A stretch of 64,000 bases of DNA from Clostridia bacterium (lineage in GTDB: Bacteria > Bacillota > Clostridia > TANB77 > CAG-465). The DNA is taken from NCBI GenBank assembly GCA_026415435.1, contig JAOAHC010000040.1, positions 263,456-327,455 on the forward strand, written 5' to 3'. Shown here piece by piece: positions 17,014 to 64,000 of the stretch. How positions within the stretch are numbered: position 1 is the stretch's first letter; each line of letters starts with the position of its first letter. The translations under genes were made by a program, and so were the position numbers. Below the pieces are notes generated by a model. That model had not been told where the DNA came from. It was given only the letters and a program-made list of their open reading frames with translations, and did not search any database.

Positions 17014-17212
17014 TTAAGTTACCATTAGCATCTTTAAATTTTCCAACAATTATCATTATCAAATCAATTATTGTCCAAATTCCGCAACCACCTAAAGTAA
17101 TTAACATTAGTATACCAGTGCCAATTTTACCTACATAAAATCTATGTGCACCTAATGATCCTAAAAATATTACTAATAGTAATGTTACTAACCAATCTTT
17201 TTTATTTTCCAA
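17000..17212 (-). CDS. TM2 domain protein
   Basis: 70 residues, essentially one TM2 domain: KKDWLVTLLLVIFLGSLGAHRFYVGK, a turn, then a second helix TGILMLITLGGCGIWTIIDLIMI. The start is a TTG at 17212, because GGAGG lies eight bases before it. The ATG further upstream, at 17233, overlaps that ribosome site. It is the first gene of the DUF2752/DUF4870 operon. Confidence 0.85.
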   Translation of the reverse strand: MENKKDWLVTLLLVIFLGSLGAHRFYVGKIGTGILMLITLGGCGIWTIIDLIMIIVGKFKDANGNLIESR

Positions 17213-17269
17213 TATACCCACCTCCAAGATCATATATTAAGTTAATATTAACACATATATATGCCATTG

Positions 17270-17665
17270 TCAATTGATATTAAGAAATTCACTGTCCTTC
17301 AAATAACATTTTTTGACATATATATTATACCAGTTGATTTTTCTTTCAAACAATTGAATATGAGTAGAGCCAAGTACACACCCACATTTACTTATAACTA
17401 TTTTATAGCATCCACTTGGGATATTACAGATATAAAATTCTCCGTTTTTATCCGTTAATGTATCCATACATATACTACTATCACATATATTTGTAATACT
17501 AATTACTGCACATGGTACAGGATCTTTATTATTATAATAACTTAGAACACCCACTAATAATTTTGGTTCGTGATTTTCGCCAATGCTATCTATATTGTAT
17601 TCATTATTTGAAATCCATTCTTCATTAGTACTATTTAGTACGCTTAATAAAATGTTATCATCCAT
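17270..17665 (-). CDS. Small protein with a carboxypeptidase-regulatory-like beta domain
   Basis: 131 residues. From about residue 35 the pattern GVLSYYNNKDPVPCAVISI, DKNGEFYICNIPSGCYKIVIS and KCGCVLGS resembles the transthyretin-like CarboxypepD_reg fold. Eight or so cysteines are spread through it. There is no signal peptide, so it may be cytoplasmic or a spore component; I cannot assign a function. Terminators flank it and it appears monocistronic. Confidence 0.6.
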   Translation of the reverse strand: MDDNILLSVLNSTNEEWISNNEYNIDSIGENHEPKLLVGVLSYYNNKDPVPCAVISITNICDSSICMDTLTDKNGEFYICNIPSGCYKIVISKCGCVLGSTHIQLFERKINWYNIYVKKCYLKDSEFLNIN

Positions 17666-17726
17666 TACTTATCTCACCTTCTCATACTTTATTATATTGG
17701 ATAACTAAATCTTTTGTTAGTAAAAA

Positions 17727-17757
17727 ATAAAAACCAATTTAACTTGGTTTTTATTTT
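17727..17757. terminator. Terminator shared by the zinc operon and the 17.3-kb region
   Basis: AAAAACCAA, loop TTTAAC, TTGGTTTTT, with T residues on both strands. It lies directly after the permease stop on the minus strand. Confidence 0.7.
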
Positions 17758-17758
17758 A

Positions 17759-18595
17759 CTATTTTGATCTTTTCATTGCAACTGTTATAAAGTATATTAA
17801 AGCTGCTACAAGTACTATTGTAGGACCACTTGCCATCTTACTATAAAACGAGATAATTAGTCCTGATACTCCACTTATAACTGAAAATAATATTGAATAT
17901 AGACTATATTGTCTTATATTATTAGATATATTTTTACTTGCTGCTGCTGGAAGTATTAAAAGTGAATTCACTATTAAAATCCCCACCCATTTTATAGATA
18001 TCATTACAGTAATTGCAACTATTATTATAAATAAAGTTTCTACTACCTTTACATTTATACCTTTACTTTTTGCTAGTGCATTGTCTATACTTATAAGTAA
18101 AAGTTTATTTGATAGTAACATCCAGAAAGTTATAACTATTATAAATGCTATAAATATTAAAATCAAATCATTTGTACCTATATTTAAAATATCCCCTATT
18201 AGAAAATTAGAATATTTCGAAAAATTTCCACCTTTTGATAGTAAAGCAAGACCTAGTGCGATTGAAGTTGATGAAAATACACTTATTATTGTATCGTTTG
18301 ATGATATATCTTTATTTTTCAAACTATATATTATATACGCAAAAAGTATTCCAAATATTATCATTGATATAACTGGATCTTTAATTCCAATTATCGAACC
18401 TATTGCTATACCAGTAAGTGCCGAATGTCCCAATGCATCCGAAAAAAACGCCATTTTATTATTTACTATCATTGTACCTATAAGGGCAAATAAAGGTGCA
18501 ATTATAACAATAGCAAGTAAAGCGTTTTTCATAAAATCATAGTTACTCCATGAAAATGGGAAAATATATTCTATCACGTTATATATTGCTTGCAA
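17759..18595 (-). CDS. znuB: Zinc/manganese ABC transporter permease (ZnuB type)
   Basis: Inner-membrane channel of a metal importer. 278 residues with about eight helices and the family signatures GTMIVNNKMAFFSDALGHSALTGIAIG near residue 37 and KWVGILIVNSLLILPAAASKN. The start is a TTG at 18595, because GAGGTG is six bases in front; upstream ATGs have no such site. It overlaps the ATPase gene by 17 bases and ends the operon. Confidence 0.92.
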   Translation of the reverse strand: MQAIYNVIEYIFPFSWSNYDFMKNALLAIVIIAPLFALIGTMIVNNKMAFFSDALGHSALTGIAIGSIIGIKDPVISMIIFGILFAYIIYSLKNKDISSNDTIISVFSSTSIALGLALLSKGGNFSKYSNFLIGDILNIGTNDLILIFIAFIIVITFWMLLSNKLLLISIDNALAKSKGINVKVVETLFIIIVAITVMISIKWVGILIVNSLLILPAAASKNISNNIRQYSLYSILFSVISGVSGLIISFYSKMASGPTIVLVAALIYFITVAMKRSK

Positions 18596-30555: not shown

Positions 30556-32238
30556 ATGTTAGGGAAAGTAAATACCAATAAAATAAACAAATACTCGTTT
30601 TATATACTGTTAATAATTATGTCTATAATTATGATATTTTTTATATCTCAAAAGAAGGGGTTTCATTGTGATGAAATTTTTTCATATGGTTCATCAAGCT
30701 ATGAATACGAATCAATATTTCATCCATACGGACAACATGATCCTTTTTATTATGTATTAAAAAATGATATCTTTAATGACAACATTTTAACTACAGCAAA
30801 AAACATACTATATTATTTTAATAATCCAGATGCTTTTTCTGAAAAAACAAAGGAATATCAAAAAAATGAAAAACCTATATGGAGAACTGGTGAAGAAGCA
30901 AAACAGTATGTAACTGTTAGTCCAGATAATAGATTTAATTTTGTATCAGTGTATTACAATCAAGCAAGAGATGTACATCCACCTTTATTCTACATGCTAG
31001 TAAATATTGTATCCTCGATACTAGCCGGAACATTTTCAAAATATATTATATTTTCTATATCAATGATCTTCTTTATTGCATCATGTTTTGTTATAAAGAA
31101 AATAATGGAGAAATTGGAAATGCAGCATTTACTAATATTAGTAATTATTGCATATGGATTTAGCATGGGAGCTATATCTACAGTATTATTTCAAAGAATG
31201 TATATGATGCTTACTTTCTTTGTTCTATACTTTTTGTATTTAAATATTTGTATCAGGAAAAATGATTATAAGATAGATAAAAAAACAAAAATAAAATTAA
31301 TGGTAACAACAGTATTAGGATTTTTAACACAATACTATTTTTGTATATATGTTTTGTTTTTAGTTATAGTTATGATTATATTTATGTTAAAGAAAAAGAA
31401 ATATAGTAATATAAAAAAATATTTAACTACATTAATAATTTCAGCTGTAATAGGAGTTTCCATATTCCCTTCCTCTATATCCCATATGTTCTTTTCATAT
31501 AGGGGTGTTGGATCATTTAATAATACTGGATACCTTGAGAGAATATATGAATATGCACAATATGTGTTTTCAACACTCATTATAAATTCTAAGATTATAA
31601 TGTTTGGAGCTATAGTTTTAATAACTTTTATGATTATATTTAAATTGATTAAAGGACCAAATAAAGAGTTATTATTAATGTTAGGTATACCAGTTCTACT
31701 GTATACTCTAGTAATTGCTAAGATATCACCGTATATTGAGCTTAGATATGTAATGTGTATACTACCTATTAGCGTAATATTTTTAGTTTTGTTACTTACA
31801 GATATACCTAAAATATCAAAGAAATTATCAATATCTATATTACTTTTACTTATATTATCTGCATCTGTTTATCAACTGATGTTTCAAAAACCACTGTTTC
31901 TTTATGAGGAATATGCAACTAATATGAATATATCTGAAAAATATAGAGGTTATGATTATATTCTTATTACTGATAATACAGCATTTAATCAAATTCATTT
32001 TATACCAGAATGTATTAATTATAGGAAAATATTAATGTTAACAGATAAAGAAATATCACTATTAGAAAAAGATATTGTTGTAAAATATGATAAGGAATTT
32101 ATTGTTAATATTTATACAGAATTTAATGCTGAAGAAATACTAAATAAAATTTTGCAATATTCTGGACATACAAAAATTGAGCAACTCAGTACAAAAGATG
32201 ACAATAAATATAATGTTTTTTATAGAATATATGATTAA
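30556..32238 (+). CDS. GT-C fold membrane glycosyltransferase (PMT/ArnT-like)
   Basis: 560 residues with about ten membrane helices. Two features fit lipid-sugar dependent GT-C enzymes: an acidic pair in the first loop (FHCDEIFSYG near residue 36) and the DVHPPLFYMLVNI motif near residue 137. A hydrophilic C-terminal domain of ~110 residues follows the last helix. The acceptor could be a wall polymer or surface protein and is unknown. It is monocistronic with a strong terminator; GGAGAAG precedes the start. Confidence 0.75.
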   Translation: MLGKVNTNKINKYSFYILLIIMSIIMIFFISQKKGFHCDEIFSYGSSSYEYESIFHPYGQHDPFYYVLKNDIFNDNILTTAKNILYYFNNPDAFSEKTKEYQKNEKPIWRTGEEAKQYVTVSPDNRFNFVSVYYNQARDVHPPLFYMLVNIVSSILAGTFSKYIIFSISMIFFIASCFVIKKIMEKLEMQHLLILVIIAYGFSMGAISTVLFQRMYMMLTFFVLYFLYLNICIRKNDYKIDKKTKIKLMVTTVLGFLTQYYFCIYVLFLVIVMIIFMLKKKKYSNIKKYLTTLIISAVIGVSIFPSSISHMFFSYRGVGSFNNTGYLERIYEYAQYVFSTLIINSKIIMFGAIVLITFMIIFKLIKGPNKELLLMLGIPVLLYTLVIAKISPYIELRYVMCILPISVIFLVLLLTDIPKISKKLSISILLLLILSASVYQLMFQKPLFLYEEYATNMNISEKYRGYDYILITDNTAFNQIHFIPECINYRKILMLTDKEISLLEKDIVVKYDKEFIVNIYTEFNAEEILNKILQYSGHTKIEQLSTKDDNKYNVFYRIYD

Positions 32239-32245
32239 ATAAATT

Positions 32246-32288
32246 AATAAAACTTACTATTAAGTATATTTTAATAGTAAGTTTTATT
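32246..32288 (+). terminator. Terminator of the glycosyltransferase gene
   Basis: Perfect 18-bp stem (AATAAAACTTACTATTAA with its complement) around a seven-base loop. The T-run is contained in the descending arm. Confidence 0.75.
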
Positions 32289-32360
32289 ATATCAATTTTT
32301 TATTGTTATAGGCTAGATATATATTCTTTTTAAAAATAATTTTTATCCTTTTATTAATAT

Positions 32361-32952
32361 TTATATTTTATATACATTATTTCCATCGTAATATATTATT
32401 TCATTATCAGTAAGAGAATACACAGGATATTGACTTTTTAATTTTAAGTTTTCTAATATCTTTTTTCTACTTTCGTTAAAGTGACAGATAACTATACCAT
32501 TAATTAAATTAAGCCCATTAAAATTATTTATATTTACATCGTTATTATCAAAACTTAAAACATGCTCTATATTTGAAGTAGCAATATGTGTTCCAGCACT
32601 AGCTCCTAAATATATAACACCGATCTTTTATATATCTCTTTATTTCACTATCAAAACCACTTTCCAAGAGTGTTTTTTGAAGCAAAAATGTATTTCCTCC
32701 ACATACATAAATTATATCAATGTCTAAATTTTTGTACTTATCTGCTGTTTCATCATTAAACATTATTATATTATTTTTTTTAAAACCTAAATTCACATAA
32801 TCTAAAATGTACTTTTCTTCATTATATTCATTTTTTCTTGCTGTTGGAATAACGAGCATTTTCAAATCATAAAATTCTTTTTGAATCTTACTTTTTACTT
32901 TATTAATAACTTCCTCATATTCAAATCCACTAGATGTTAATATTATATTCAT
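32361..32952 (-). CDS. pepE: Peptidase E-like serine dipeptidase (S51), split by a +1 frameshift
   Basis: Serine peptidase of the S51 class, which releases N-terminal Asp dipeptides. The first part (MNIILTSSGFEYEE, DIIYVCGGNTFLLQ) ends in KDR and the stop codon six codons after a CGG at 32622. The second part continues in the +1 frame: GVIYLGASAGTHIATSN, whose Ser in GASAG is the nucleophile, then NGLNLINGIVICHFNE with the catalytic-triad His region, to a stop at 32361. The whole would be 196 residues. Without the shift the protein lacks its active site. It is either a recoded gene, a pseudogene, or a sequence error. Confidence 0.8.
32619..32625 (-). other. +1 shift site, GAT CGG T, in peptidase E
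   Basis: Zero frame on the minus strand is AAA GAT CGG TGT. Skipping the C gives GAT GGT GTT ATA TAT (DGVIY), which leads straight into the active-site motif. Confidence 0.75.
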
Positions 32953-50304: not shown

Positions 50305-50311
50305 ATTTTTC

Positions 50312-50357
50312 TGGCTGGGATGGCTGGATTCGAACCAACGAAATGCCAGAGTCAAAG
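50312..50357 (-). pseudogene. 3' half of tRNA-Gln(TTG): attachment-site remnant
   Basis: From the anticodon loop on, the minus strand is a good tRNA-Gln: CTTTGAC loop, TCTGG stem arm, variable loop, T arm GTTGG-TTCGAAT-CCAGC, acceptor CATCCCA and GCCA. The 5' half is missing; upstream of GACTTTGAC the sequence is unrelated. Loss at the anticodon loop is typical of integrase attachment sites in tRNA genes. Confidence 0.85.
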
Positions 50358-50704
50358 TCAAAATATTTTGTGTACAACCTTGGAGAGCTTTAAATTAGAG
50401 AGCTTACGACAGATTATCATATAAATAGTATGTTAGATTTGATTTTTTATAAGTCATATTTTTATGCTATATATGGTATATTACATTTATTGTAAAAAGT
50501 CAATATGTTATCCCTTAATTCGTAAATAAAATGCGGGAGTACAGTATTGAATACGATAAATTATGAATCCAGTCATTACTGTTAAATTTGTATTTTCGTA
50601 AATACTTTAATTTATATTTTGAATGAAATTTAGATTAGTTTAATGAAAATTATTGATTTGGATTTACAATTATTGTATAATAAGCACGTATTTGGGAGGC
50701 TAAT
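50358..50704. other. Non-coding left end of the integrated element
   Basis: No gene is supported here. The only clear signal is the promoter at 50653-50681. An open frame across the tRNA remnant is an artefact of the T arm. Confidence 0.5.
50653..50681 (+). promoter_or_regulatory. Promoter of the 50.7-kb gene
   Basis: TTGATT (50653-50658), 17 bases, TATAAT (50676-50681), then GGGAGG before the ATG at 50705. The leader would be under 20 bases. Confidence 0.7.
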
Positions 50705-52923: not shown

Positions 52924-53357
52924 TGGATATAAAAGAATTAATTTTTCAAACTATCCAAAGTGCAGGTATAGTTGCTTCATTTATAATTACAATTTATACT
53001 TTAAGAAAAAATAACAGAACAATAAAAGCTTCTAACTCCTTGCTTATTACTCAACATCATAGGGAAATTTGGACAACCATTTATCAAACAGATAGTTTAA
53101 AAAGAGTATTTGATAAAAACGCAGACATTACTAAAGAACCTGTGACAGATGAAGAATTTTGTTTTGTTAATTTAATTTTTCTACATATGAGCTCATGCTT
53201 AAAACTTTCTAATGCAGATGCTTGCTATAAAATACAGGGAATGGAGAAAGACATACAAGATATTTTATCTTATCCTATTCCTAAATATGTATGGTTAAAT
53301 GTTTATAAGTTTCATGACAAAGTATATGCTGATTTTGTTATGAGAAATATAAATTGA
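52923..53357 (+). CDS. Membrane-anchored cassette protein (DUF4760/DUF6082-like)
   Basis: 144 residues. One N-terminal helix (TIQSAGIVASFIITIYTL) precedes a helical cytoplasmic domain: NNRTIKASNSLLITQHHREIWTTIYQTDSLKRVF, then FCFVNLIFLHMSSCLKLSNADACYKI. The layout resembles DUF4760- and DUF6082-type proteins (helix plus 'R...L' helical bundle). It is the last gene of the coupled trio. A membrane effector paired with cytosolic partners is conceivable but not shown. Confidence 0.55.
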   Translation: MDIKELIFQTIQSAGIVASFIITIYTLRKNNRTIKASNSLLITQHHREIWTTIYQTDSLKRVFDKNADITKEPVTDEEFCFVNLIFLHMSSCLKLSNADACYKIQGMEKDIQDILSYPIPKYVWLNVYKFHDKVYADFVMRNIN

Positions 53358-53519
53358 AGTTATCATACATCGTCAGATATATTCTCTAAAATTAATATAA
53401 AGAGTAATTTAAAACATCTCGTATCCTTTTCATTCCAAATAAAAAAGAGGAATATAGATGGGACAATTTATTCTTTACAATTATGGTTACGGAATTAGTG
53501 AAAGGATAGGTGGCTGTTA

Positions 53520-53708
53520 GTGTCAACTTACGACTTTGTCTCTCGGTCAATTGAAAAAGATAAGTCAATTCCATCGGAAGAAATAACTACTTTTTATGAA
53601 AATTATTATCATGAGATTAAGGAAAATAATACTCAAATAAATGATAATAATAATTCATCAGAAGATTATAGTACATATACACTTAAAACTACATATGAAT
53701 ATTTATGA
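53520..53708 (+). CDS. Small hypothetical protein
   Basis: 62 residues starting with GTG behind AGGTGG: MSTYDFVSRSIEKDKSIPSE, then EITTFYENYYHEIKENN and an Asn/Ser-rich tail. It is not recognised. It contains TCT CGG TCA in frame, read as Arg. A tiny open frame from an ATG at 53459 ends at the TAG that overlaps this GTG, so a coupled leader peptide is possible. The tail is of low complexity. Confidence 0.45.
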   Translation: MSTYDFVSRSIEKDKSIPSEEITTFYENYYHEIKENNTQINDNNNSSEDYSTYTLKTTYEYL

Positions 53709-53724
53709 TTTTATGCAATATAGG

Positions 53725-53780
53725 AGCTGTGTACAAATTTCTTGTATTTTTAAGAAATTCACACAGCTCTTATTATTTTA
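53725..53780 (+). terminator. Long terminator hairpin before the recombinase unit
   Basis: AGCTGTGT pairs with ACACAGCT and AATTTCTT with AAGAAATT around an eight-base loop; TCTTATTATTTTA follows and runs into the left inverted repeat. Confidence 0.7.
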
Positions 53781-53792
53781 GGCAGGTAGTTA
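53778..53792 (+). repeat. Left 15-bp inverted repeat of the recombinase unit
   Basis: TTAGGCAGGTAGTTA, identical in reverse complement to 55460-55474. The pair frames the large serine recombinase gene and nothing else. Confidence 0.8.
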
Positions 53793-53811
53793 TATTGTTA
53801 TATTTTGTTCC

Positions 53812-53843
53812 AAAACGTGTATACCCTAGGGTATACATGTTTT
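53812..53843. repeat. Near-perfect palindrome beside the recombinase stop
   Basis: TGTATACCCTAGGGTATACA (53818-53837) is a perfect 20-base palindrome, extended by AAAAC/GTTTT on the flanks with one mismatch. It lies between the left repeat and the recombinase stop. It could be a recombinase or repressor site. Confidence 0.75.
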
Positions 53844-53851
53844 GCACCATT

Positions 53852-55423
53852 TTAAAATGGATTTTTAAATCTAAAATGAATTTCTATCCGGTTTTTATCA
53901 AAAATGATAATTTTGTCTATGAGTCTTGCCAAAACTGACTTATCTACATTTTCAAAATTTAATATGCTTTGTACCAGTTTTAGTAATTCGTCTGAATCTT
54001 TTTCCTCCACCTTTTCTTGTTGTAGTTTCTCTAACTTTATTAAAAACTGCTCTTTTTCTTTGTTATATACCCCTGAATATTCTATAAAGTCAGCTTGGCT
54101 TAATACCCCTTTTATTTTGTCTTCATAAAGCCCCATTGTAATTTTTTTAAGCTCGGATATTCTATTTTCTATAATAGATATTTCTTTATTACACTTATCT
54201 AGCTTTGAAACCTTTGGTTTTTGTTCTACAGACTTCAAAAGATTTCTTTGGTTAACGGAATATTCAGAAATTTTTTTAAGCTCTGATAATACATAGTCTT
54301 CAAGGTATTTTTCTTTTATAGAATGTCTTGTACATGAGCGAAACCTTTTATATTTAGAGCATAATGTGTAAACAGTATTTGAACTGTGAGTAAATGTTAT
54401 ACGTTCTCCACAATCTCCACAAAACAACAGTCCTGCTAATAGATGGGGTGTACCTTTGCTATAATCTTTACCAATTTTTCTTGTAACAATTTCTTCCGCT
54501 ATTTTGAAAGTATCCATATCAATTATTGCTTCATGAGTATTATTTACAGTTACCCAAGCCTCCTTAGGCACCCGCTTTAACTTTTTGCTTTTGTAATTTA
54601 CTTTTACAACTTTGTTTTGTGTTACATTGCCAGTATAAGTAGGATTTTTTATTATGTCTTTTACAGTTGCATCAGCCCATAATTTCATACTTTTTGGTCT
54701 TTTATAGTTTGATGTTTCCATCTTGTATGCTCCTGGACTTGGTATACCCTCACTGTTCAGTGTCCTTGCTATTTTTGCAAAACCCATACCAGTTACAAAC
54801 ATATTAAAGATTCTTTTGACAATATCTGATGTCTTCTCATCTATGACTAGCTTATTCTTGTTTTTTGGGTCTTTTAAATAGCCATATGGGGTAAATCCTC
54901 CAATATAATCTCCCTTTGACCTTTTAGTATTCATTGCAGTTCTGACCTTTTTAGATATATCTTTTGCATACATATCATTCATTACTGATTTAAACGGACT
55001 CATATCATTATTGCTGTTATTGCTTGCAAATGTATCAATACCGTCATTTATAGCAATATATCTTACATCATGTTCAGGAAAATATCTTTCGAGGTAATAT
55101 CCTGTATCGATATAGTCTCTTCCAAGTCTTGATAAGTCTTTCGTAATGACAAGATTTATTTTCTTTAACTCAATATCTTTTATCATTCTTTTAAAATCTG
55201 GTCTGTTATAATTTGTACCTGTGTATCCATCATCAATATATATATCAACTAAATTCCAACCTTGTGCTATAACATAGGAATGCAGGAATTCTTTCTGATT
55301 TATTATACTTTCTGATTGACCGGTATTTTCATCTTCTCTTGATAGTCTTAGATAAATCGCCACATTATATATTTTAGTGTCTATAATCTTTTTATTGTAG
55401 TTATTCTCAATACTTGCATACAT
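53852..55423 (-). CDS. Large serine recombinase
   Basis: Site-specific recombinase of the TnpX/TndX type that integrates, excises or inverts DNA. 523 residues: resolvase domain with catalytic Ser in IYLRLSREDENTG near residue 27 and DDGYTGTNYNRPDFKRM and DLSRLGRDYIDTG; the recombinase domain (MNTKRSKGDYIGGFTPYGYLKDP and onward); a zinc ribbon (GLLFCGDCGERI ... CSKYKRFRSCTRH); and a coiled coil (~395-470). It uses in-frame CGG for Arg (54574, 53890). It is framed by a 15-bp inverted repeat and preceded by two very small genes. Confidence 0.93.
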   Translation of the reverse strand: MYASIENNYNKKIIDTKIYNVAIYLRLSREDENTGQSESIINQKEFLHSYVIAQGWNLVDIYIDDGYTGTNYNRPDFKRMIKDIELKKINLVITKDLSRLGRDYIDTGYYLERYFPEHDVRYIAINDGIDTFASNNSNNDMSPFKSVMNDMYAKDISKKVRTAMNTKRSKGDYIGGFTPYGYLKDPKNKNKLVIDEKTSDIVKRIFNMFVTGMGFAKIARTLNSEGIPSPGAYKMETSNYKRPKSMKLWADATVKDIIKNPTYTGNVTQNKVVKVNYKSKKLKRVPKEAWVTVNNTHEAIIDMDTFKIAEEIVTRKIGKDYSKGTPHLLAGLLFCGDCGERITFTHSSNTVYTLCSKYKRFRSCTRHSIKEKYLEDYVLSELKKISEYSVNQRNLLKSVEQKPKVSKLDKCNKEISIIENRISELKKITMGLYEDKIKGVLSQADFIEYSGVYNKEKEQFLIKLEKLQQEKVEEKDSDELLKLVQSILNFENVDKSVLARLIDKIIIFDKNRIEIHFRFKNPF

Positions 55424-56083: not shown

Positions 56084-56962
56084 TCAATCTTTCATTGTTT
56101 CTAATCTCTCTATCCGATATGCAATCCTGGGGTGGTCTTCCTGATATCTTTTAATTAAGCTCATTTTGTCGGATATCTGTATATCATACAAAACATATAG
56201 CGCCTGTATAAGTTCAGCTTTATAGCCTAAATATGCTGCATATTCATCTGCCCTATACTCGGACTGGCGATATTCATAATTTAAAATTATTGTTGCAATA
56301 AAGGTCACTATATTTATTATTAAATCAAGTATCTTAACGATTAATCCCAGAAATAGGCTTGCTATATTGGGTCCATTTGTTACCATGTTTGTAATTTTTT
56401 GAATTATCATTATTATACATTTTACTATAAATATCACCCATAAATATACTAAGCTACACATATTTATGAGAATTTGCAATTGAGGGTCACTATTTTCTAA
56501 ATGCCCCAACTCATGAGCAATTATGCCTTTTATTTCATCATCATTCATAGTAGCCATAAGACCTCTGCTTACAGCAATTGTATTTTGTCCTAGCGAAAAA
56601 GCATTTATTGCCATTTCATCAACTATAAACAAACGAATATGTTTACTTATATACGGCGACTTTTGTTTTGCTACTTCGTAAACTTCATTAAACAAAACAA
56701 GTAACCGTTCCTTTTCTGTACTTGTAGCTACTTCTCGTATGTCTTCCACAGCCCTTAGTGTATACTCTACAAAAGGAGATAATGCCAATGTTATTGTAAA
56801 ACAATACACAAGAATGCTTATAATAAACCAAGACATTCTATCAAAATCGGCAAAATTGAAGTGATTAAAAATCATCATATAGACTATTAACCATATAAAT
56901 AGTATCGGTTTATCAAAAAAAATCCTATATATATCTACTACTTCATCAAGAACTTTACCCAT
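56084..56962 (-). CDS. M48-family membrane metalloprotease (HtpX-like)
   Basis: 292 residues with the zinc motif IIAHELGHLENSDP near residue 140 and helices on both sides, two before and two to three after. The third zinc ligand lies in the conserved YRQSEYRADEYAA stretch. INAFSLGQNTIAVSRGLMATM matches HtpX. These proteases degrade damaged membrane proteins; an element-encoded copy next to a coupling ATPase is unusual and may serve transfer-complex control. CGG codons (56116, 56707) are read as Arg, the first in the family motif HPRIAYRIERL. Confidence 0.88.
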   Translation of the reverse strand: MGKVLDEVVDIYRIFFDKPILFIWLIVYMMIFNHFNFADFDRMSWFIISILVYCFTITLALSPFVEYTLRAVEDIREVATSTEKERLLVLFNEVYEVAKQKSPYISKHIRLFIVDEMAINAFSLGQNTIAVSRGLMATMNDDEIKGIIAHELGHLENSDPQLQILINMCSLVYLWVIFIVKCIIMIIQKITNMVTNGPNIASLFLGLIVKILDLIINIVTFIATIILNYEYRQSEYRADEYAAYLGYKAELIQALYVLYDIQISDKMSLIKRYQEDHPRIAYRIERLETMKD

Positions 56963-56981: not shown

Positions 56982-58625
56982 TTAAAATGGCTTTCTTACT
57001 TTTATTCGTTCACATTTTCCTATGTCTCTTGATAAGAATATTCCTTTTCCCGTTTGTAGTGATTTTATTTCATCAGGGTGTACAATGAATTCTCTTGTTC
57101 TTCTAGCAGATCCCACCTCCGGCGTTTTAGATTTATCAATTTGAAATGTGACTTGCATTGTCTCCCTAGTACCCAGTGTTTTAGCCCATTCTTCAGCACT
57201 TTTTGAGCTATTTTGCCTTAGTACCACATAGTTATTACAATTTTCAATTATCTGTTGTTTAAATGGTTCTCCAGCCACAGCTTCAAGGTCAGCAAGGCTT
57301 TGAGTGGCAGGTATAGCTGTTACTCCTGCGCTTCTTGATTTGTTTATTAAATCGATTAAAACTGTTGAAGCATATACGTTTATTTCATCGAATATGAAGA
57401 ACTTTCTTTTGTTATACTGTCCAAACATTTTGCTGATTGTTTTTTTAGCGTCAATTAATATGAGTCTTCCCATTGTGTTTGATAACTCAGGATATATCAG
57501 GGGATTTAACACAAATAGTATTATTGAATTTTGGCTTAAAGCTGTGTATATATCTATACCGGTTTTATCAAATATTTCACCTACATCACTTTCAGCAATT
57601 GTCGAGAAACGTGCTGAAGCATTTTCAGCTATTTTTGAGCTTGATTTTATAAGCTCCAGGTTAAGCAAGTGTTCTTCCTTAGATATCTTTTGTTCTTTTA
57701 CAAGTGTAGCTGATATTTCCTCAAACTTTGAAGCACTTATATTGGATATGATATGATTAAATGAGAACTCATTTTTTTGCATTTTTAAAAGCTTCAAAAG
57801 TTTTTGAATATATCTTTCAGTATTTACCTTGTAATGCTCCTCACTCCAGTCAGTCATGTTTATCAGCATGTCCTTGCAAATTGTTTCACTGCAATTCATA
57901 AACGGATTGTATTTGATGGATAGCTCAGGATTATTCAAATCTACAATGTACAGCTTTTTACCGTGCTTAGTTGCAAACTTTTTTGTAATATACATAAGTG
58001 AGCCGTCATCAATATCGCCTTTTCCGTCTACAATAAGCATTCCATAATCTTTTGATATTCCGCTTTCAATAAAGTTTGAAAGTAAGACAGTTTTACCACT
58101 TCCAGTAGTACCGCATACGAATATATGCTTAGCCCTGTCATCGCAAAAAACTGCTTTTCCACCTTTATTTGTACCTATTAAGGTTTTATCTTCTGACTCT
58201 TTTTGTGGTCTTTCATTCATGCTATCGTTCATTTTTGATATACTCCCATCAAAAGAATTAATCCCAACATTTTTGTATAGCTTTCTTTTGTACATCACAT
58301 TCGCAAAATACCCAGCGAAAATAAAGGAGAAAGCTGAAAGTATAAACCAACTTATATAACAAAATCTCCCATATAATCCTATGATTTGATAATAGCTTTT
58401 AGAATTAATGCAAATAAATAAATTTTTCGACATATTTCCTATATCTTGAATTAGAAGAATTAATGCATTATTTTGAAATATGCAGATTAAAAGCAGAAGT
58501 GTAATTCCAGAAATGATGAAAACTGTTCCTTTTTTATTTGCTCTATATAGAAGTAGTGCAAAAACTGTTGACATTAGTATTGACGGTAAAATAGCAATAA
58601 AAATTATGCCGTATAATAACGGCAC
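56982..58625 (-). CDS. VirD4-type conjugative coupling ATPase
   Basis: 547 residues. The first ~115 hold several hydrophobic helices for membrane anchoring. The motor domain has Walker A VCGTTGSGKTVLLSNF near residue 170, DGKGDIDDGS, and Walker B FFIFDEINVYAST near residue 405, followed by RSAGVTAIPATQSLADLEA. Such proteins bring relaxase-bound DNA to a type IV channel. The start is a GTG six bases after the previous stop, without a strong ribosome site, so translation is coupled. Other channel genes (VirB4 and VirB6) are not in this window. Confidence 0.88.
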   Translation of the reverse strand: MPLLYGIIFIAILPSILMSTVFALLLYRANKKGTVFIISGITLLLLICIFQNNALILLIQDIGNMSKNLFICINSKSYYQIIGLYGRFCYISWFILSAFSFIFAGYFANVMYKRKLYKNVGINSFDGSISKMNDSMNERPQKESEDKTLIGTNKGGKAVFCDDRAKHIFVCGTTGSGKTVLLSNFIESGISKDYGMLIVDGKGDIDDGSLMYITKKFATKHGKKLYIVDLNNPELSIKYNPFMNCSETICKDMLINMTDWSEEHYKVNTERYIQKLLKLLKMQKNEFSFNHIISNISASKFEEISATLVKEQKISKEEHLLNLELIKSSSKIAENASARFSTIAESDVGEIFDKTGIDIYTALSQNSIILFVLNPLIYPELSNTMGRLILIDAKKTISKMFGQYNKRKFFIFDEINVYASTVLIDLINKSRSAGVTAIPATQSLADLEAVAGEPFKQQIIENCNNYVVLRQNSSKSAEEWAKTLGTRETMQVTFQIDKSKTPEVGSARRTREFIVHPDEIKSLQTGKGIFLSRDIGKCERIKVRKPF

Positions 58626-58630
58626 ATATG

Positions 58631-59269
58631 CTATTTATCTTTGAACTTTTGTGCATATTCTTGTATCACCTCTAACGACAATATTTCAATATTGTTGTAT
58701 TTTAATTTTGCCTGTGACAAAAACTGTTTTATAGCTACTTTGTTATCCGGCACAATCCAGTATTGAGTTTCATATTTTAAATAGTTGTCTTTTATATTTT
58801 TCTCAAATCTAACTTTAGCTTTCATACTTGTTTCAATCTCAACACAGTATTTCTTTAAATCTTGAGTATACACAAAGTCGGGGACATGAGTCCTTGGGTT
58901 AAAGCCCATTTTATGCCTTAGCTCTTTTTCACTTTCAATTTTTAAAATATCTACAGCCATATTTTTTATAAAATATATGACTGTATCAATGACCGCTATA
59001 TCATGATATATTTGGTCTAGCCTTACTTTGCTTTTGGATAAATCCATATTAAAGAACTCAGTAGCTTTATCAGTTACAAAATACAGTCCAGGCAATCCAT
59101 ATAGGATATGCCTACGTTCTAAAAATTGTTCGCTTATAAGCTTTTGAAGTCTCCTATCTGTTGCACGTTGACCTTCAAAATCACATAAAATTTTAATTTG
59201 CCTGCCAAGGCAATACCTCCACCTTGCTACCTGCTCCACTATCACTCTATCCCTTTCTACTATCCTCAT
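58631..59269 (-). CDS. Replication-relaxation family protein
   Basis: 212 residues. The N-terminal winged-helix region (RDRVIVEQVARWRYCLGRQIKILCDF ... RATDRRLQKLISEQFLERRHIL) and GLPGLYFVTDKATEFF match the Replic_Relax family (PF13814), known from plasmids and conjugative elements. A nuclease-like middle contains MGFNPRTHVPDFVYT and KKYCVEIETSMK, reminiscent of a PD-(D/E)xK core (D...ExE). If so, it could itself nick at the adjacent inverted repeat. It heads the minus-strand operon with VirD4 and M48. Confidence 0.8.
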   Translation of the reverse strand: MRIVERDRVIVEQVARWRYCLGRQIKILCDFEGQRATDRRLQKLISEQFLERRHILYGLPGLYFVTDKATEFFNMDLSKSKVRLDQIYHDIAVIDTVIYFIKNMAVDILKIESEKELRHKMGFNPRTHVPDFVYTQDLKKYCVEIETSMKAKVRFEKNIKDNYLKYETQYWIVPDNKVAIKQFLSQAKLKYNNIEILSLEVIQEYAQKFKDK

Positions 59270-59290
59270 TCACACACACCTTACCTTAAG

Positions 59291-59429
59291 ACACACAAAA
59301 AACACACGCTTAATATATAAATATCATAAGTATTTCACGTTGCAATAGTGGGGTCTCGGGGAAAAATTCGCCGAGACCCCACTATTGCAACTCTTATGTA
59401 CTGGATATATAGCGTGTGTTTTTATGTGT
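59291..59429. repeat. Nested ~140-bp inverted repeat, candidate oriT or replication origin
   Basis: The centre is a perfect 21-bp inverted repeat (59339-59359 with 59371-59391, GTTGCAATAGTGGGGTCTCGG) around the 11-base loop GGAAAAATTCG. Outside it CATAAG/CTTATG and AAAAACACACGC/GCGTGTGTTTTT also pair, so the symmetry extends over nearly 140 bases. It is locally richer in G+C and sits 22 bases upstream of the replication-relaxation gene, where an oriT or double-strand origin is expected. No T-run follows, so it is not a simple terminator. Confidence 0.85.
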
Positions 59430-59503
59430 TATATTCCTATTATATGGTATGACTATTCGTATGTGATTAGAACATGTAAAAGAACACCCTTTAAGAACAC
59501 TTT

Positions 59504-60259
59504 TTACTTGGCAAGTCTTGCTTCTGCAAATAGTATCATACGATTTGCTCCACCATAATCAATAAATTTATTATTTGTTTCTATTTTCAAAATATTTACA
59601 CCTTTTAAATCAATATTAATATCAAGAGGAGTCATACCTCCAGCTATTTGCGGAGTAGTATATATTAAATTATCATCACCATAAAATTTGATTATGGTAG
59701 GTTGCATAATATCCGCCCATTTTTCACTTTCAACGATCAATGTACCAAGAAACTTACTGTATTGTTTATTAAGTAGATATTCTGTAGTAATTCCCACTGC
59801 ACCAGTTTTTTCATCCTTATTGTTAAAGAACAGTTTATATCTCAAACCTCTAGTATAATTGACTTTATCGTACTCGATATTTTTAAATGGTTCAAAATAG
59901 TTTGTTGCTCCTGTAGATTCAAAACTAAGATAAGCCATCTGATCTAAATACTTTACGCCTGTATCTCCAATAGTAACAGTATTTGCTTTGGTATCCCATT
60001 TTGCAGTTTTTCCAAGGCTACTAGCTACTGAACTTATTGGAAGATATGGAACACCGTTATAAATAAACGGCTCTACAGCATTACCCTTACTATCCTTTGC
60101 CTGAACAACTTTTCCATCAACAACTACCTTTATATTGTTATATATTACTTTTATCGATTGTTGAACTTGCTTAGCATATACCGCAACCCCTGAGATAATA
60201 ACAGTTGCCACGATTATAGCTATAGTCAAAGCCAATTTTTTGTATACTCTTTTATTCAT
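59504..60259 (-). CDS. Secreted stalk-domain protein with NPCBM-like domain
   Basis: 251 residues: a signal helix (LALTIAIIVATVIISGVAVYA), a copper-amine-oxidase N-terminal 'stalk' domain (IKVVVDGKVVQAKDSKGNAVEPFIYNGVPYLPISSVASSLGKTAKWD) and a C-terminal NPCBM-like lectin domain (LGTLIVESEKWADIMQPTIIKFYGDD ... LKIETNN). Both domains bind wall or surface sugars in related proteins. GGAGG eight bases before 60259 sets the start. It follows the CHAP-protein gene by 20 bases on the same strand. Confidence 0.85.
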   Translation of the reverse strand: MNKRVYKKLALTIAIIVATVIISGVAVYAKQVQQSIKVIYNNIKVVVDGKVVQAKDSKGNAVEPFIYNGVPYLPISSVASSLGKTAKWDTKANTVTIGDTGVKYLDQMAYLSFESTGATNYFEPFKNIEYDKVNYTRGLRYKLFFNNKDEKTGAVGITTEYLLNKQYSKFLGTLIVESEKWADIMQPTIIKFYGDDNLIYTTPQIAGGMTPLDINIDLKGVNILKIETNNKFIDYGGANRMILFAEARLAK

Positions 60260-60279
60260 ATGAATATCCTCCAATTATT

Positions 60280-61296
60280 TTAATTTAAATATATATATCC
60301 ATTACATACCTTGGCAAAATTAGATTTAGACATTGATTGTAAAATCCCATCGTTATTATCAATTACAGCATTAAAATCAAAATTTGCCTGAGTATAATAA
60401 ACAGTATCTCCTATTACATCTTCTACATATAGAACATGTCCATCAGCTCCTGCAGTAGCAACGGCTATAGAATTTGCCCGAGGTTGGTTACTGTCCCGTA
60501 CAGCCTTTGCACCAGCTGTATTTAATCTATCTAGCCACGTTTTGGCGGGTCCGATAGTATTCAAACGTATTCCTGTCTTTTCATATGCTCGTCCCCAACA
60601 ATACCATGTACATTGAGCTTTAAATTTAGCTGCAAATGGGTTATCCAAATTGTATGCACTTGAACTGAAATTAGCAAGCCTTTTGCCCAACATTGAACGC
60701 AAATCATTTGTTGGAGTTACAGTCTGCACATTGCTTTTAGGTTTGTCCACTCTTTGCAAATACCATAACTGATTATTTGAGTCGTTATATGCTTGCAAGC
60801 TCACCCCACCATTATTAATTCTAGGATTTATTGCCGTTATAACTGAGTCTTTAAGCACTGCAAGTTCTATGGTATATTTGCCGTCACCCCGGTTGGTAAT
60901 ATACCACTCCTGGGCAGGGGAGTCGCTTGGCATCCATATATCAATTGTATTTCCATTTTTTAATGGATTTTTATATGAGTTCCCCCTGTATGTATCAAGA
61001 ACACGTCCTTTGCTTGAAGATTGAGGGGATAGAGCATACTTTCCGCCACCTCGATTTATAAGCTTAAAATTTTGTTCCTTTGAACCATCTTTAACCCATA
61101 CACATACTCTTGCACCGTCTTTGTCTTGCCCTGCATAAACATTTAGGTATCTTCCACCATCTACACAAATAAGGTTATACACACCCTCGTCCAGTTGGTC
61201 TGCTTCTACTCCTAAAGTAAAAGAAAACATGGTAATCATAAAAGACATTAGCATGAAAAATATAAGTGACCTACTTTTTAATCTCTGTTTTGACAT
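60280..61296 (-). CDS. Secreted ricin-lectin/CHAP amidase
   Basis: 338 residues: a signal peptide ending in GVEA, ricin-type beta-trefoil repeats (YNLICVDGGRYLNVYAGQDKDGARVCVW ... NQLWYLQRV) to about residue 185, then a CHAP domain with catalytic Cys in KAQCTWYCWGRAYEKTG near residue 230 and His in GHVLYVEDV near 290. It likely cuts peptidoglycan peptide bonds, as hydrolases of conjugation systems do, with the lectin part for targeting. It precedes the stalk-domain gene in one operon. Confidence 0.9.
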   Translation of the reverse strand: MSKQRLKSRSLIFFMLMSFMITMFSFTLGVEADQLDEGVYNLICVDGGRYLNVYAGQDKDGARVCVWVKDGSKEQNFKLINRGGGKYALSPQSSSKGRVLDTYRGNSYKNPLKNGNTIDIWMPSDSPAQEWYITNRGDGKYTIELAVLKDSVITAINPRINNGGVSLQAYNDSNNQLWYLQRVDKPKSNVQTVTPTNDLRSMLGKRLANFSSSAYNLDNPFAAKFKAQCTWYCWGRAYEKTGIRLNTIGPAKTWLDRLNTAGAKAVRDSNQPRANSIAVATAGADGHVLYVEDVIGDTVYYTQANFDFNAVIDNNDGILQSMSKSNFAKVCNGYIYLN

Positions 61297-61387: not shown

Positions 61388-62533
61388 TCATTCTAAACTG
61401 ATTACTTTTGATGTAGTGTAAGCATTCCACAAATCTATTGTTAATTCTTTGTAGTCCATGACCCGCCCGAATAAATCATCTATATACTTTGCTTCTCCTG
61501 TATCCAAATCAATAAGTAAATATGTAAGCCCTGAATAACCCTTTTGACCAACTAAAAAGAAAAGATATTTACTGGTTATATACTCGCACTCTAATTTTCC
61601 AAACTGCGATACTCCAATTTGAGCTACGTTCCTTTTATTATTTCCGTCTACTTCATATACAATTTGCTTAAAATATTTATCACCTGTTAATTCATCTGTT
61701 TCATCAACTTTTTCAGAGATATACATTGCTTTACTTGGCAAAAAGTTAAAATATGAATTATTCCCAAATATACTTTTACTATCAACTATATAATCATTTT
61801 TCTTAATATTTCCTGTGGTAATATCTACATTATATGAACCGTGGGAATCACTAACCATGAAAGTTCCGTCAGCTTGTAATATCCAACCTTTTACATTATC
61901 TATATATATTTTATCATTTGGTATTTTACATGATAATGAATCTTGACCATCAGCAGTGATTGCCACCACATTTGTCCAGCTATTTGCCTTATATAGAAGA
62001 TAAATATTTTTTCCATCTGAAATTAAGCTACGAAATATTCCGTACTTTTTTAAATACTCTCGACTTTGTAATTTAGTGTATGTATCTGTTTTTATATCAT
62101 AGATATATAAAGAACTAATTGTTTCATTTGAACGTGGTTTTAAATTTTCATCATCCCTATCAGTTGCAAAAAAGCATACTCTGTAGTCATCAAGAGCAAC
62201 TATATTACTAAAAATTTCATATCTTCCGCTTATTGTACCAACTTCTTGACCTAAATAATATATTATTATGTCTCTGACTCCATTATAGGCATTTTCAGAA
62301 TATATGAAAGTCCATCCGTATCCATAATAGGGAAGTAGGGCTTTTTCTTCATCTGACAAAGTCTTACTGACAGGTTTAAAAGCTTCAATTTCAGAGTTCA
62401 CATTTGTACTAATTTGAGATGAATTATAAGGTTTAAATGGTTCAGATAATTTATCCGCCAGTTTACTGTCTGAACATGAAGTAAGTGTGATTAAAAAAGG
62501 TATTATCGCAAACATTAGTAGCCTACGCCTCAT
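61388..62533 (-). CDS. Lipoprotein, probably beta-propeller
   Basis: 381 residues with a lipobox LTSC and Cys at residue 20 (FAIIPFLITLTSCSDSK). The remainder shows repeated units like ISSLYIYDIKTDTYTKLQS, LLYKANSWTNVVAIT and FMVSDSHGSYNVDITTGNI, compatible with a beta-propeller. It would lie on the outer face of the membrane. No enzyme motif is visible. It is separated from the CHAP gene by 91 bases and probably has its own promoter in the gap to the XRE gene. Confidence 0.7.
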   Translation of the reverse strand: MRRRLLMFAIIPFLITLTSCSDSKLADKLSEPFKPYNSSQISTNVNSEIEAFKPVSKTLSDEEKALLPYYGYGWTFIYSENAYNGVRDIIIYYLGQEVGTISGRYEIFSNIVALDDYRVCFFATDRDDENLKPRSNETISSLYIYDIKTDTYTKLQSREYLKKYGIFRSLISDGKNIYLLYKANSWTNVVAITADGQDSLSCKIPNDKIYIDNVKGWILQADGTFMVSDSHGSYNVDITTGNIKKNDYIVDSKSIFGNNSYFNFLPSKAMYISEKVDETDELTGDKYFKQIVYEVDGNNKRNVAQIGVSQFGKLECEYITSKYLFFLVGQKGYSGLTYLLIDLDTGEAKYIDDLFGRVMDYKELTIDLWNAYTTSKVISLE

Positions 62534-62666: not shown

Positions 62667-63029
62667 ATGAGACTCCTTATTGGTGACAAACTTCGTGAAT
62701 TACGTGAAGAACTGAATTTGACACAAAATGAAGTGGGTGAAAAAACCGGTTGCACTGTCAGTATGATTTCAAGCTATGAAATAAACAGACGTGAACCGGA
62801 TTTAGATACTTTAAAAAGGCTTTGCAATTTTTTTGATGTATCTGCTGACTACTTACTTGGGAGAACTGCCGATGCCAAAAGTTATAACCCAAACAACTTG
62901 CCTGTAAAGCAAAGAGAACTTTTAAAATATTTCAATAAATTACCTTTAAACTATCAAGATGATGTAATCCGCATTGCTAGACTAAATTTACTTGATTATG
63001 AGAACGCCCTTACAAATAAGGGAAAGTGA
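62667..63029 (+). CDS. XRE-family transcriptional regulator
   Basis: 120 residues. An N-terminal helix-turn-helix, IGDKLRELREELNLTQNEVGEKTGCTVSMISSYEINRREPDLDTLKRLCNFFDVSADYLLG, is a classical phage/element repressor type. The C-terminal half is helical, perhaps for dimerisation. It is divergent from the lipoprotein gene and is the likely control gene of the element. GAGG precedes the start. Confidence 0.93.
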   Translation: MRLLIGDKLRELREELNLTQNEVGEKTGCTVSMISSYEINRREPDLDTLKRLCNFFDVSADYLLGRTADAKSYNPNNLPVKQRELLKYFNKLPLNYQDDVIRIARLNLLDYENALTNKGK

Positions 63030-63105: not shown

Positions 63106-64000
63106 TTATCTTTTCATCGGCATATATTTTTTCACCGTTGTAAACTGTTCAAGTGGATTGAACTCATTAAAATTCTGATGTAAGTCTTCTGAAAACATAT
63201 TCACATACTCTTTTACCATATCAAGACTGCTATGTCCCAATATTTTTTGCAATCTAAAAATATCTCCGCCATTTAGAATCCACTTTTTAGCGAAAGTATG
63301 TCTAAATAAATGTAATGACGTTTTCAATACTCCTTTTGATTTATTATACAGATATATAGTATGTTGCAGTGCATATACTGTAAGTCTGTTGCCATATGTA
63401 TTACAAAATAAATAGTCGTCATTACTTCCTTTTCTATATTTTAAATAGTCCCTTAATATTTGTACAAGTGAGCGGGAAAGCGGAATTATCTGTTGTTTTC
63501 TGTTTTTGGTCTTGGTAAGTATAATTGTTTCATTAGAAAAATCTATATTTTCAATTTTTAGATTTGATACTGTTGAAGCTCTGTTTCCAGTGGCTAGTAA
63601 ATAATTTACAATTACCCAGTTTCTATACTCTGAAAAATTACATTTATTCAAATCAGGCTTTTTCAAAAGTAGCTGAAGTTCATAATCGGTGTATGTTGGC
63701 TTTATTGTTTTTTCAGTTTTTATTAAAGTTATTTTAAAAGGTTTTGTATATCCCATTTCCATAAAATATGAAAAAATTACTCTTGTTCCTCTTAAATAAC
63801 TATTAATTGTGACCTCTTTTACGTTTCTTTCTTTCAAAAAGCTTATATAGCCCATGATTGCTTCTTGATTTAAAGTATTGCACTTTTTAGCTGTGTCATA
63901 GTACTGTCCGGAAATACTTAAAACAATCATCATAATATCGGATTGTTTTCTCAGATAAGTTTTTTGACTTGTTAAATTTTTGAAATGCATCGAAAGCACT
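63106..64000 (-). CDS. Tyrosine recombinase/integrase, 5' end outside the window
   Basis: At least 297 residues. Catalytic residues are visible: Arg in TGNRASTVSNL near residue 140, HLFRHTFAKKW with the second Arg and His near 230, LGHSS and the nucleophile Tyr in MVKEYVNMF near 268. The N-terminal core-binding domain includes FLKERNVKEVTINSYLRGTRVIFSYF. The frame runs to the window edge, and the GTG at 63999 may not be the true start. It is the natural candidate for integration at the tRNA-Gln site at 50.3 kb. Confidence 0.9.
   Translation of the reverse strand, partial: VLSMHFKNLTSQKTYLRKQSDIMMIVLSISGQYYDTAKKCNTLNQEAIMGYISFLKERNVKEVTINSYLRGTRVIFSYFMEMGYTKPFKITLIKTEKTIKPTYTDYELQLLLKKPDLNKCNFSEYRNWVIVNYLLATGNRASTVSNLKIENIDFSNETIILTKTKNRKQQIIPLSRSLVQILRDYLKYRKGSNDDYLFCNTYGNRLTVYALQHTIYLYNKSKGVLKTSLHLFRHTFAKKWILNGGDIFRLQKILGHSSLDMVKEYVNMFSEDLHQNFNEFNPLEQFTTVKKYMPMKR

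Follow-up and report, generated by a model that had tools for sequence, protein, structure and literature searches.

A Nested Inverted Repeat beside a Divergent MOBC Relaxase Gene as the Probable Transfer Origin of a tRNA-Gln-Integrated Mobilizable Element in a Clostridia Bacterium

Introduction

What is the role of a nested inverted repeat of nearly 140 bases that stands directly in front of genes for a putative relaxase and a VirD4-type coupling protein? The question arises from a locus in a Clostridia bacterium, analyzed here within a 64-kb stretch of DNA (64,000 nt, hereafter the window), for which a preliminary description had suggested a new relaxase/oriT pair. One relaxase family, MOBC, has long been recognized to carry a restriction-endonuclease-type active site (PMC12857230; PMC5714925). 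The restriction-endonuclease-like character of its relaxases has mutational support in TraX, and a covalent DNA intermediate has not been found (PMC12857230); with such an intermediate never seen and few transfer origins mapped, MOBC is among the least understood relaxase families.

The Integrated Element

The locus lies within an integrated element of ∼13.9 kb, bounded by 51-nt direct repeats of the 3′ end of tRNA-Gln(TTG) that are spaced 13,921 bp apart and are identical at 50 of 51 positions. Its boundaries and the genes outside the transfer module are as follows.

50310–50360, no strand: left attachment repeat, a truncated copy of the tRNA-Gln(TTG) 3′ end
53852–55423, minus: large serine recombinase with resolvase, recombinase, and zinc-ribbon domains; relatives in the G011, G527, and UBA8386 loci
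59504–60274: cargo neighbor, a Cu_amine_oxidN1 plus NPCBM protein
60280–61296, minus: cargo, a RicinB-lectin plus CHAP amidase protein
61388–62533: cargo neighbor, a protein without a family match
62667–63029, plus: Xre-type regulator, with a relative in the G527 element
63106–63999, minus: tyrosine integrase, whose full open reading frame runs to about 64020, just inside the right repeat
Equivalent of 64230–64280, beyond the window (L043 16686–16736): right attachment repeat, adjoining the tyrosine integrase

No VirB4 family match was found inside the element, and the combination of an integrase, attachment repeats, and a relaxase without internal T4SS genes is that of an integrative mobilizable element. 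The tRNA-Gln(TTG) insertion site adjoins tRNA-His.

A Divergent MOBC Relaxase

Three consecutive genes on the minus strand make up the transfer module and its immediate neighbor.

58631–59269, minus: divergent MOBC relaxase by profile comparison, 212 aa, with a winged-HTH-like N-terminus and a PD-(D/E)xK-like motif
56982–58625, minus: VirD4/TraD-type coupling protein, 547 aa, initiated at GTG and separated by 5 nt from the relaxase gene before it
56084–56962, minus: M48 peptidase-like membrane protein, which adjoins VirD4 also in G011 and is present in G527

The position of a "replication-relaxation" gene and virD4 beside the repeat was described correctly at the outset, whereas the family label does not hold as a Pfam match: the 212-aa protein stays below the PF13814 gathering score, and its kinship emerged solely from profile comparison. 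Several relatives typed as MOBC likewise fall under the PF13814 cut-off, so the miss reflects one model's threshold and says nothing about what defines the family. Against NF041423 ("MobC family") the protein obtained an E-value of 4.6e-5, compared with 2.6e-5 for pTEF1 TraX itself, both under the cut-off. A profile of three close relatives aligned by hhalign with a set of twelve MOBC proteins (TraX, Klebsiella MobC, and Bacillus, Paenibacillus, and Lactobacillaceae proteins among them) at 98.9% probability, with an E-value of 1.1e-17 over 198 columns. Residues D152, E170, E172, and K176 (TraX numbering) are invariant in the MOBC set and correspond to D131, E144, E146, and K150 of the window protein; both glutamates and the lysine were also invariant in 9 diverse MOBC members. 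The D...ExE residues at first likened to those of a PD-(D/E)xK nuclease are thus the family's own invariant motif. Identity to enterococcal TraX is about 15%.

Judged by these profile and residue comparisons, the gene product is a divergent member of the MOBC relaxase family. It does not represent a new relaxase class, because MOBC, which includes CloDF13 MobC and pAD1 TraX, is the known nuclease-fold relaxase family, and the earlier statement that the window holds no classical relaxase is not supported either. A profile search of the PDB matched the N-terminal HTH part to MarR-type structures and returned only HTH proteins. An AlphaFold model computed without an alignment had a pLDDT of 38.5, too low for use, and searches of viral contigs with six proteins gave one relative, which matched TraX only. 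An M48-type membrane peptidase accompanies the MOBC–VirD4 module in three related elements, namely that of the window and those at L045 17373–18239 and L062 15462–16259.

Structure of the Nested Inverted Repeat

59291–59429, no strand: nested inverted repeat, the predicted oriT, from repeat search, folding, recurrence, and compensatory changes
59339–59363 and 59367–59391: inner arms, 25 nt, 96% match
59339–59359 and 59371–59391: perfect 21-bp inner stem, GTTGCAATAGTGGGGTCTCGG and CCGAGACCCCACTATTGCAAC, with an 11-nt loop
59298–59316 and 59405–59423: outer arms, 19 nt, 89% match, the first letters being AAAAACACACGCT

Both inner and outer arms are present, in agreement with the perfect 21-bp hairpin inside about 140 bases of broken symmetry that first drew attention to the site. 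Folded as DNA on either strand, positions 59285–59435 reached about −47 to −49 kcal/mol vs. −11 for shuffled sequences (z = −14), and 0 of 200 shuffles folded equally well. When nested inverted repeats were ranked over 158 tiles of 800 nt, this one scored highest in the 64-kb window, at 35 compared with 28 for the next independent repeat, and a whole-genome search found it as a single copy. Weaker nested inverted repeats lie at about 31600–32800 (score 28), 53200–54400 (score 23), and 17200–18400 (score 23).

Recurrence beside Other MOBC Genes

The preliminary description had recommended a search for similar repeats near PF13814 genes. Such repeats do recur: about 20 MOBC genes of Gram-positive elements are preceded by a nested repeat. 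In a convenience sample of loci, 23 relaxase-gene starts were searched over the 800 nt in front of each, and most Gram-positive cases had nested repeats, with scores of 23–43 against shuffle maxima of 14; the repeats span about 90–195 bp. A wider search added two (Bacillus subtilis and Paenibacillus xylanexedens), and G527, a fourth close relative, also carries one. By this method only the inner stem was scored in Carboxydocella, L017, L018, and L021, and the Carboxydocella repeat also has a 14-nt outer arm. No clear repeat was seen at L019 or L020, and loci L022–L028 are distant matches, mostly lacking the relaxase–VirD4 module. The MOBC–VirD4 gene order is common to Carboxydocella, pDC09, Paenibacillus, Lactobacillaceae, and Bacillus plasmids, many of which are typed MOBC by PLSDB.

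Among five members of the same polarity, 12 of 19 inner-stem pairs had changed on both sides while 96.8% remained paired (40–45% in slid controls), which indicates that pairing is kept as the sequence drifts. In our literature search, we found no published description of the nested repeat and 25-nt core recurring at Gram-positive MOBC genes. The UBA8386 relaxase gene (L006 7964–8580) is split by a frameshift, and its oriT-like repeat is intact.

A Conserved Core and a Predicted Nick

59334–59358, minus: conserved core of the predicted oriT, CGAGACCCCACTATTGCAACGTGAA (CNWGACY-N9-CWWCRT, 25 nt), located with a matrix from 16 other elements

When the stems and their flanks were aligned, each of the 20 listed elements showed, on the relaxase-sense strand, GACY (AACY in three), nine bases, and then CWWC or CCAC. 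The core falls mostly in the left arm and loop in Bacilli, in the right arm and 3′ flank in the window's group, and within the right arm in G527. That its strand and spacing stay fixed despite this changing palindrome geometry argues for a protein–DNA site. A scan of the 64-kb window, with a matrix built from 16 elements outside the window's clade, placed 59334–59358 (minus) first at 25.0 bits; the runner-up was the core's palindromic partner, the next independent site reached 15.0 bits, and maxima in six shuffled windows were 11.0–19.4 bits. Of the 16 non-clade loci that have a defined site, leave-group-out scans put this site in first place in 15 and in second place in one. Because the initial choice of motif sites was made by eye on all elements, the window included, the matrix test is only partly independent and not blind.

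The 11-mer GGGTGGTCGGG, which we take to be the nic region of CloDF13, occurs once in that plasmid, some 500 bp ahead of mobB. Read as its reverse complement, CCCGACCACCC, it is similar to the core and on this analogy suggests a nick on the plus strand between 59352 and 59353 (GTGGG/GTCTCG). The earlier failure to recognize a standard oriT nick motif is explained by a core that is specific to MOBC. The nested-repeat layout and 25-nt core offer a sequence-based route to MOBC origins, applied so far at about 20 genes; they also predict the nick and allow mobilizable elements to be recognized in uncultured Clostridia.

Relation to Known Systems

Elements that pair MOBC with VirD4 and are mobilizable have already been published, and the module in the window is of this known family. 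The enterococcal plasmids pAD1, pAM373, and pTEF1 share with it the D..ExExxxK motif, N-terminal HTH, and VirD4/TraG-type partner of TraX, as well as, at oriT2, an inverted repeat that is likewise nested and about 140 bp long, with a GACC-N9-CAACGT core on the same strand. They differ in encoding their own T4SS, in the placement of the core (left arm and loop, rather than right arm and 3′ flank), and in a repeat-to-gene gap of 600 nt, compared with about 22 nt in the window. The pAD1 oriT has been mapped between ORF53 and ORF57 (PMC3084688). In pTEF1 and pAM373 we found a 142-bp repeat, with identical arms of 25 nt and 18 nt, that separates traX from the coupling-protein gene and so occupies the interval where the pAD1 oriT was mapped. 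Francia and Clewell reportedly noted in 2002 that this pAD1 interval contains a large inverted repeat some 140 bp in length. The pAD1 relaxase binds short direct repeats about 70–120 bp from nic. Just outside the window's repeat, at about 59479–59501, two copies of AAGAACAC form a weak pair, spotted by eye, that is possibly a remnant of such relaxase-binding repeats.

The MobB/MobC system of CloDF13 likewise combines a MOBC relaxase with its own VirD4 on a mobilizable element, and the sequence we assume to be its nic resembles the GACC core; in contrast, its gene order is reversed, and neither the 800-nt nor the wider search found a nested repeat in two CloDF13-type plasmids. Class 8 streptococcal IMEs comprise a PF13814 relaxase, VirD4, and a serine integrase (PMC5357655, PMC7563491). 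The window element resembles them in relaxase family, coupling protein, and serine recombinase, and no T4SS genes were found in it; unlike them, it adds a tyrosine integrase at a tRNA-Gln attachment repeat and belongs to a different host lineage.

The Repeat as a Probable Transfer Origin

Repeat recurrence, covariation, the core motif, relaxase homology with its catalytic residues, operon order, and the attachment repeats together make it very likely that 59291–59429 is the oriT of the ∼13.9-kb integrative mobilizable element in tRNA-Gln, and that the adjoining gene encodes its MOBC relaxase; the element, with its own VirD4, would be mobilized by a helper T4SS. The proposed relaxase/oriT pair is thus strongly supported by comparison, whereas its novelty is not supported, MOBC being already known. 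We infer nicking, the nick position, excision, transfer, and the use of a helper in the following scheme. The tyrosine integrase would excise the element, and the winged-HTH part of the relaxase would recognize oriT. The conserved GACC core would then be nicked in one strand by the relaxase's PD-(D/E)xK-like domain (predicted plus strand, 59352/59353), and the element's VirD4 would couple the nicked strand to a putative helper conjugative pore. Recognition, strand opening, or termination may depend on the extrudable hairpin.

Alternative Roles of the Repeat

Replication deserves first consideration. The best PHROG match of the 212-aa protein is "replication initiation protein," and in S. mutans plasmids of 5.6 kb the gene and hairpin homologous to those of the window have been proposed as Rep and DSO, respectively (PMC3547324). 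These cryptic plasmids (pUA140, pDC09, pNC101) share with the window a MOBC-like ORF1, a VirD4 ORF2, and a GACC-core hairpin just upstream, but they replicate as plasmids, have no other annotated Rep, and were published as having an RCR Rep and a pT181-like origin. Since their "Rep" is MOBC-like and their proposed origin has the same hairpin and core, a second, replicative role is possible. The repeat could then be a rolling-circle double-strand origin at which the MOBC-like protein starts replication of the excised circle, instead of or besides transfer. We are inclined to doubt this, as the neighboring gene nearly always encodes VirD4, the pAD1-type counterpart serves as an oriT, the window's element is an integrated one, and separate replication genes are present on several of the homologous plasmids; the two roles are not exclusive, however. 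More speculatively, and with somewhat less conviction still, MOBC proteins of this branch might be both relaxase and rolling-circle initiator at one hairpin, in which case plasmid replication would be started by an enzyme of the restriction-nuclease type that forms no covalent tyrosine link, and Gram-positive MOBC elements would have GACC-N9-CWWC as their common nic/origin signal. The published Rep/DSO assignment of the S. mutans 5.6-kb plasmid may need revision. In pDC09 (L007), ORF1 (397–1173) is MOBC-like by hhalign (95.9%) and has no Pfam match, and the published pT181-like DSO hairpin (255–311) carries the MOBC GACC core.

A sigma-70-like promoter at 59467–59439 (minus) lies on the far side of the repeat from the relaxase gene, whose start codon on the minus strand is about 22 nt from the repeat, so that the hairpin would fall in the leader and could control the mobC–virD4 operon at the level of transcription or of the mRNA leader, as an attenuator or operator. 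This is improbable as the main function, given that relatives differ widely in the gap to the gene (about 20 nt to about 1.1 kb), that the core stays on one strand even as its location within the palindrome shifts, and that the repeat contains no T-tract and was negative in terminator scoring. A terminator was rejected. A regulatory role in addition to that of oriT is possible.

It is more improbable again that the repeat is a recombination or resolution site. The element does encode both a serine recombinase and a tyrosine integrase that could use one, but the integrase has its attachment repeats at tRNA-Gln, away from this site, and the nested repeat accompanies MOBC genes in plasmids whose examined loci show no serine recombinase nearby. 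A chance palindrome or decayed insertion sequence end, in favor of which we found no point, can be practically dismissed in view of the z of −14, the top rank in 64 kb, the recurrence, and the covariation.

Other Relaxases and a Possible Helper

A standard relaxase with its own oriT elsewhere in the element had been named at the outset as evidence against a new relaxase/oriT pair. Genome-wide, there were zero matches to MOBP (PF03432), MOBQ (PF03389), and Rep_trans/MOBT (PF02486), as well as to MOBV (PF01076), for which the search's control gave no signal and the result is uninformative. VirB4-like genes are present on other contigs of the genome. One VirB4-like gene cluster (L064, G000:C9:14000–33900), in which no oriT-like site was found, also encodes a protein of 340 aa that matches PF13814 weakly and lacks the ExE motif; this cluster is a possible T4SS or helper.
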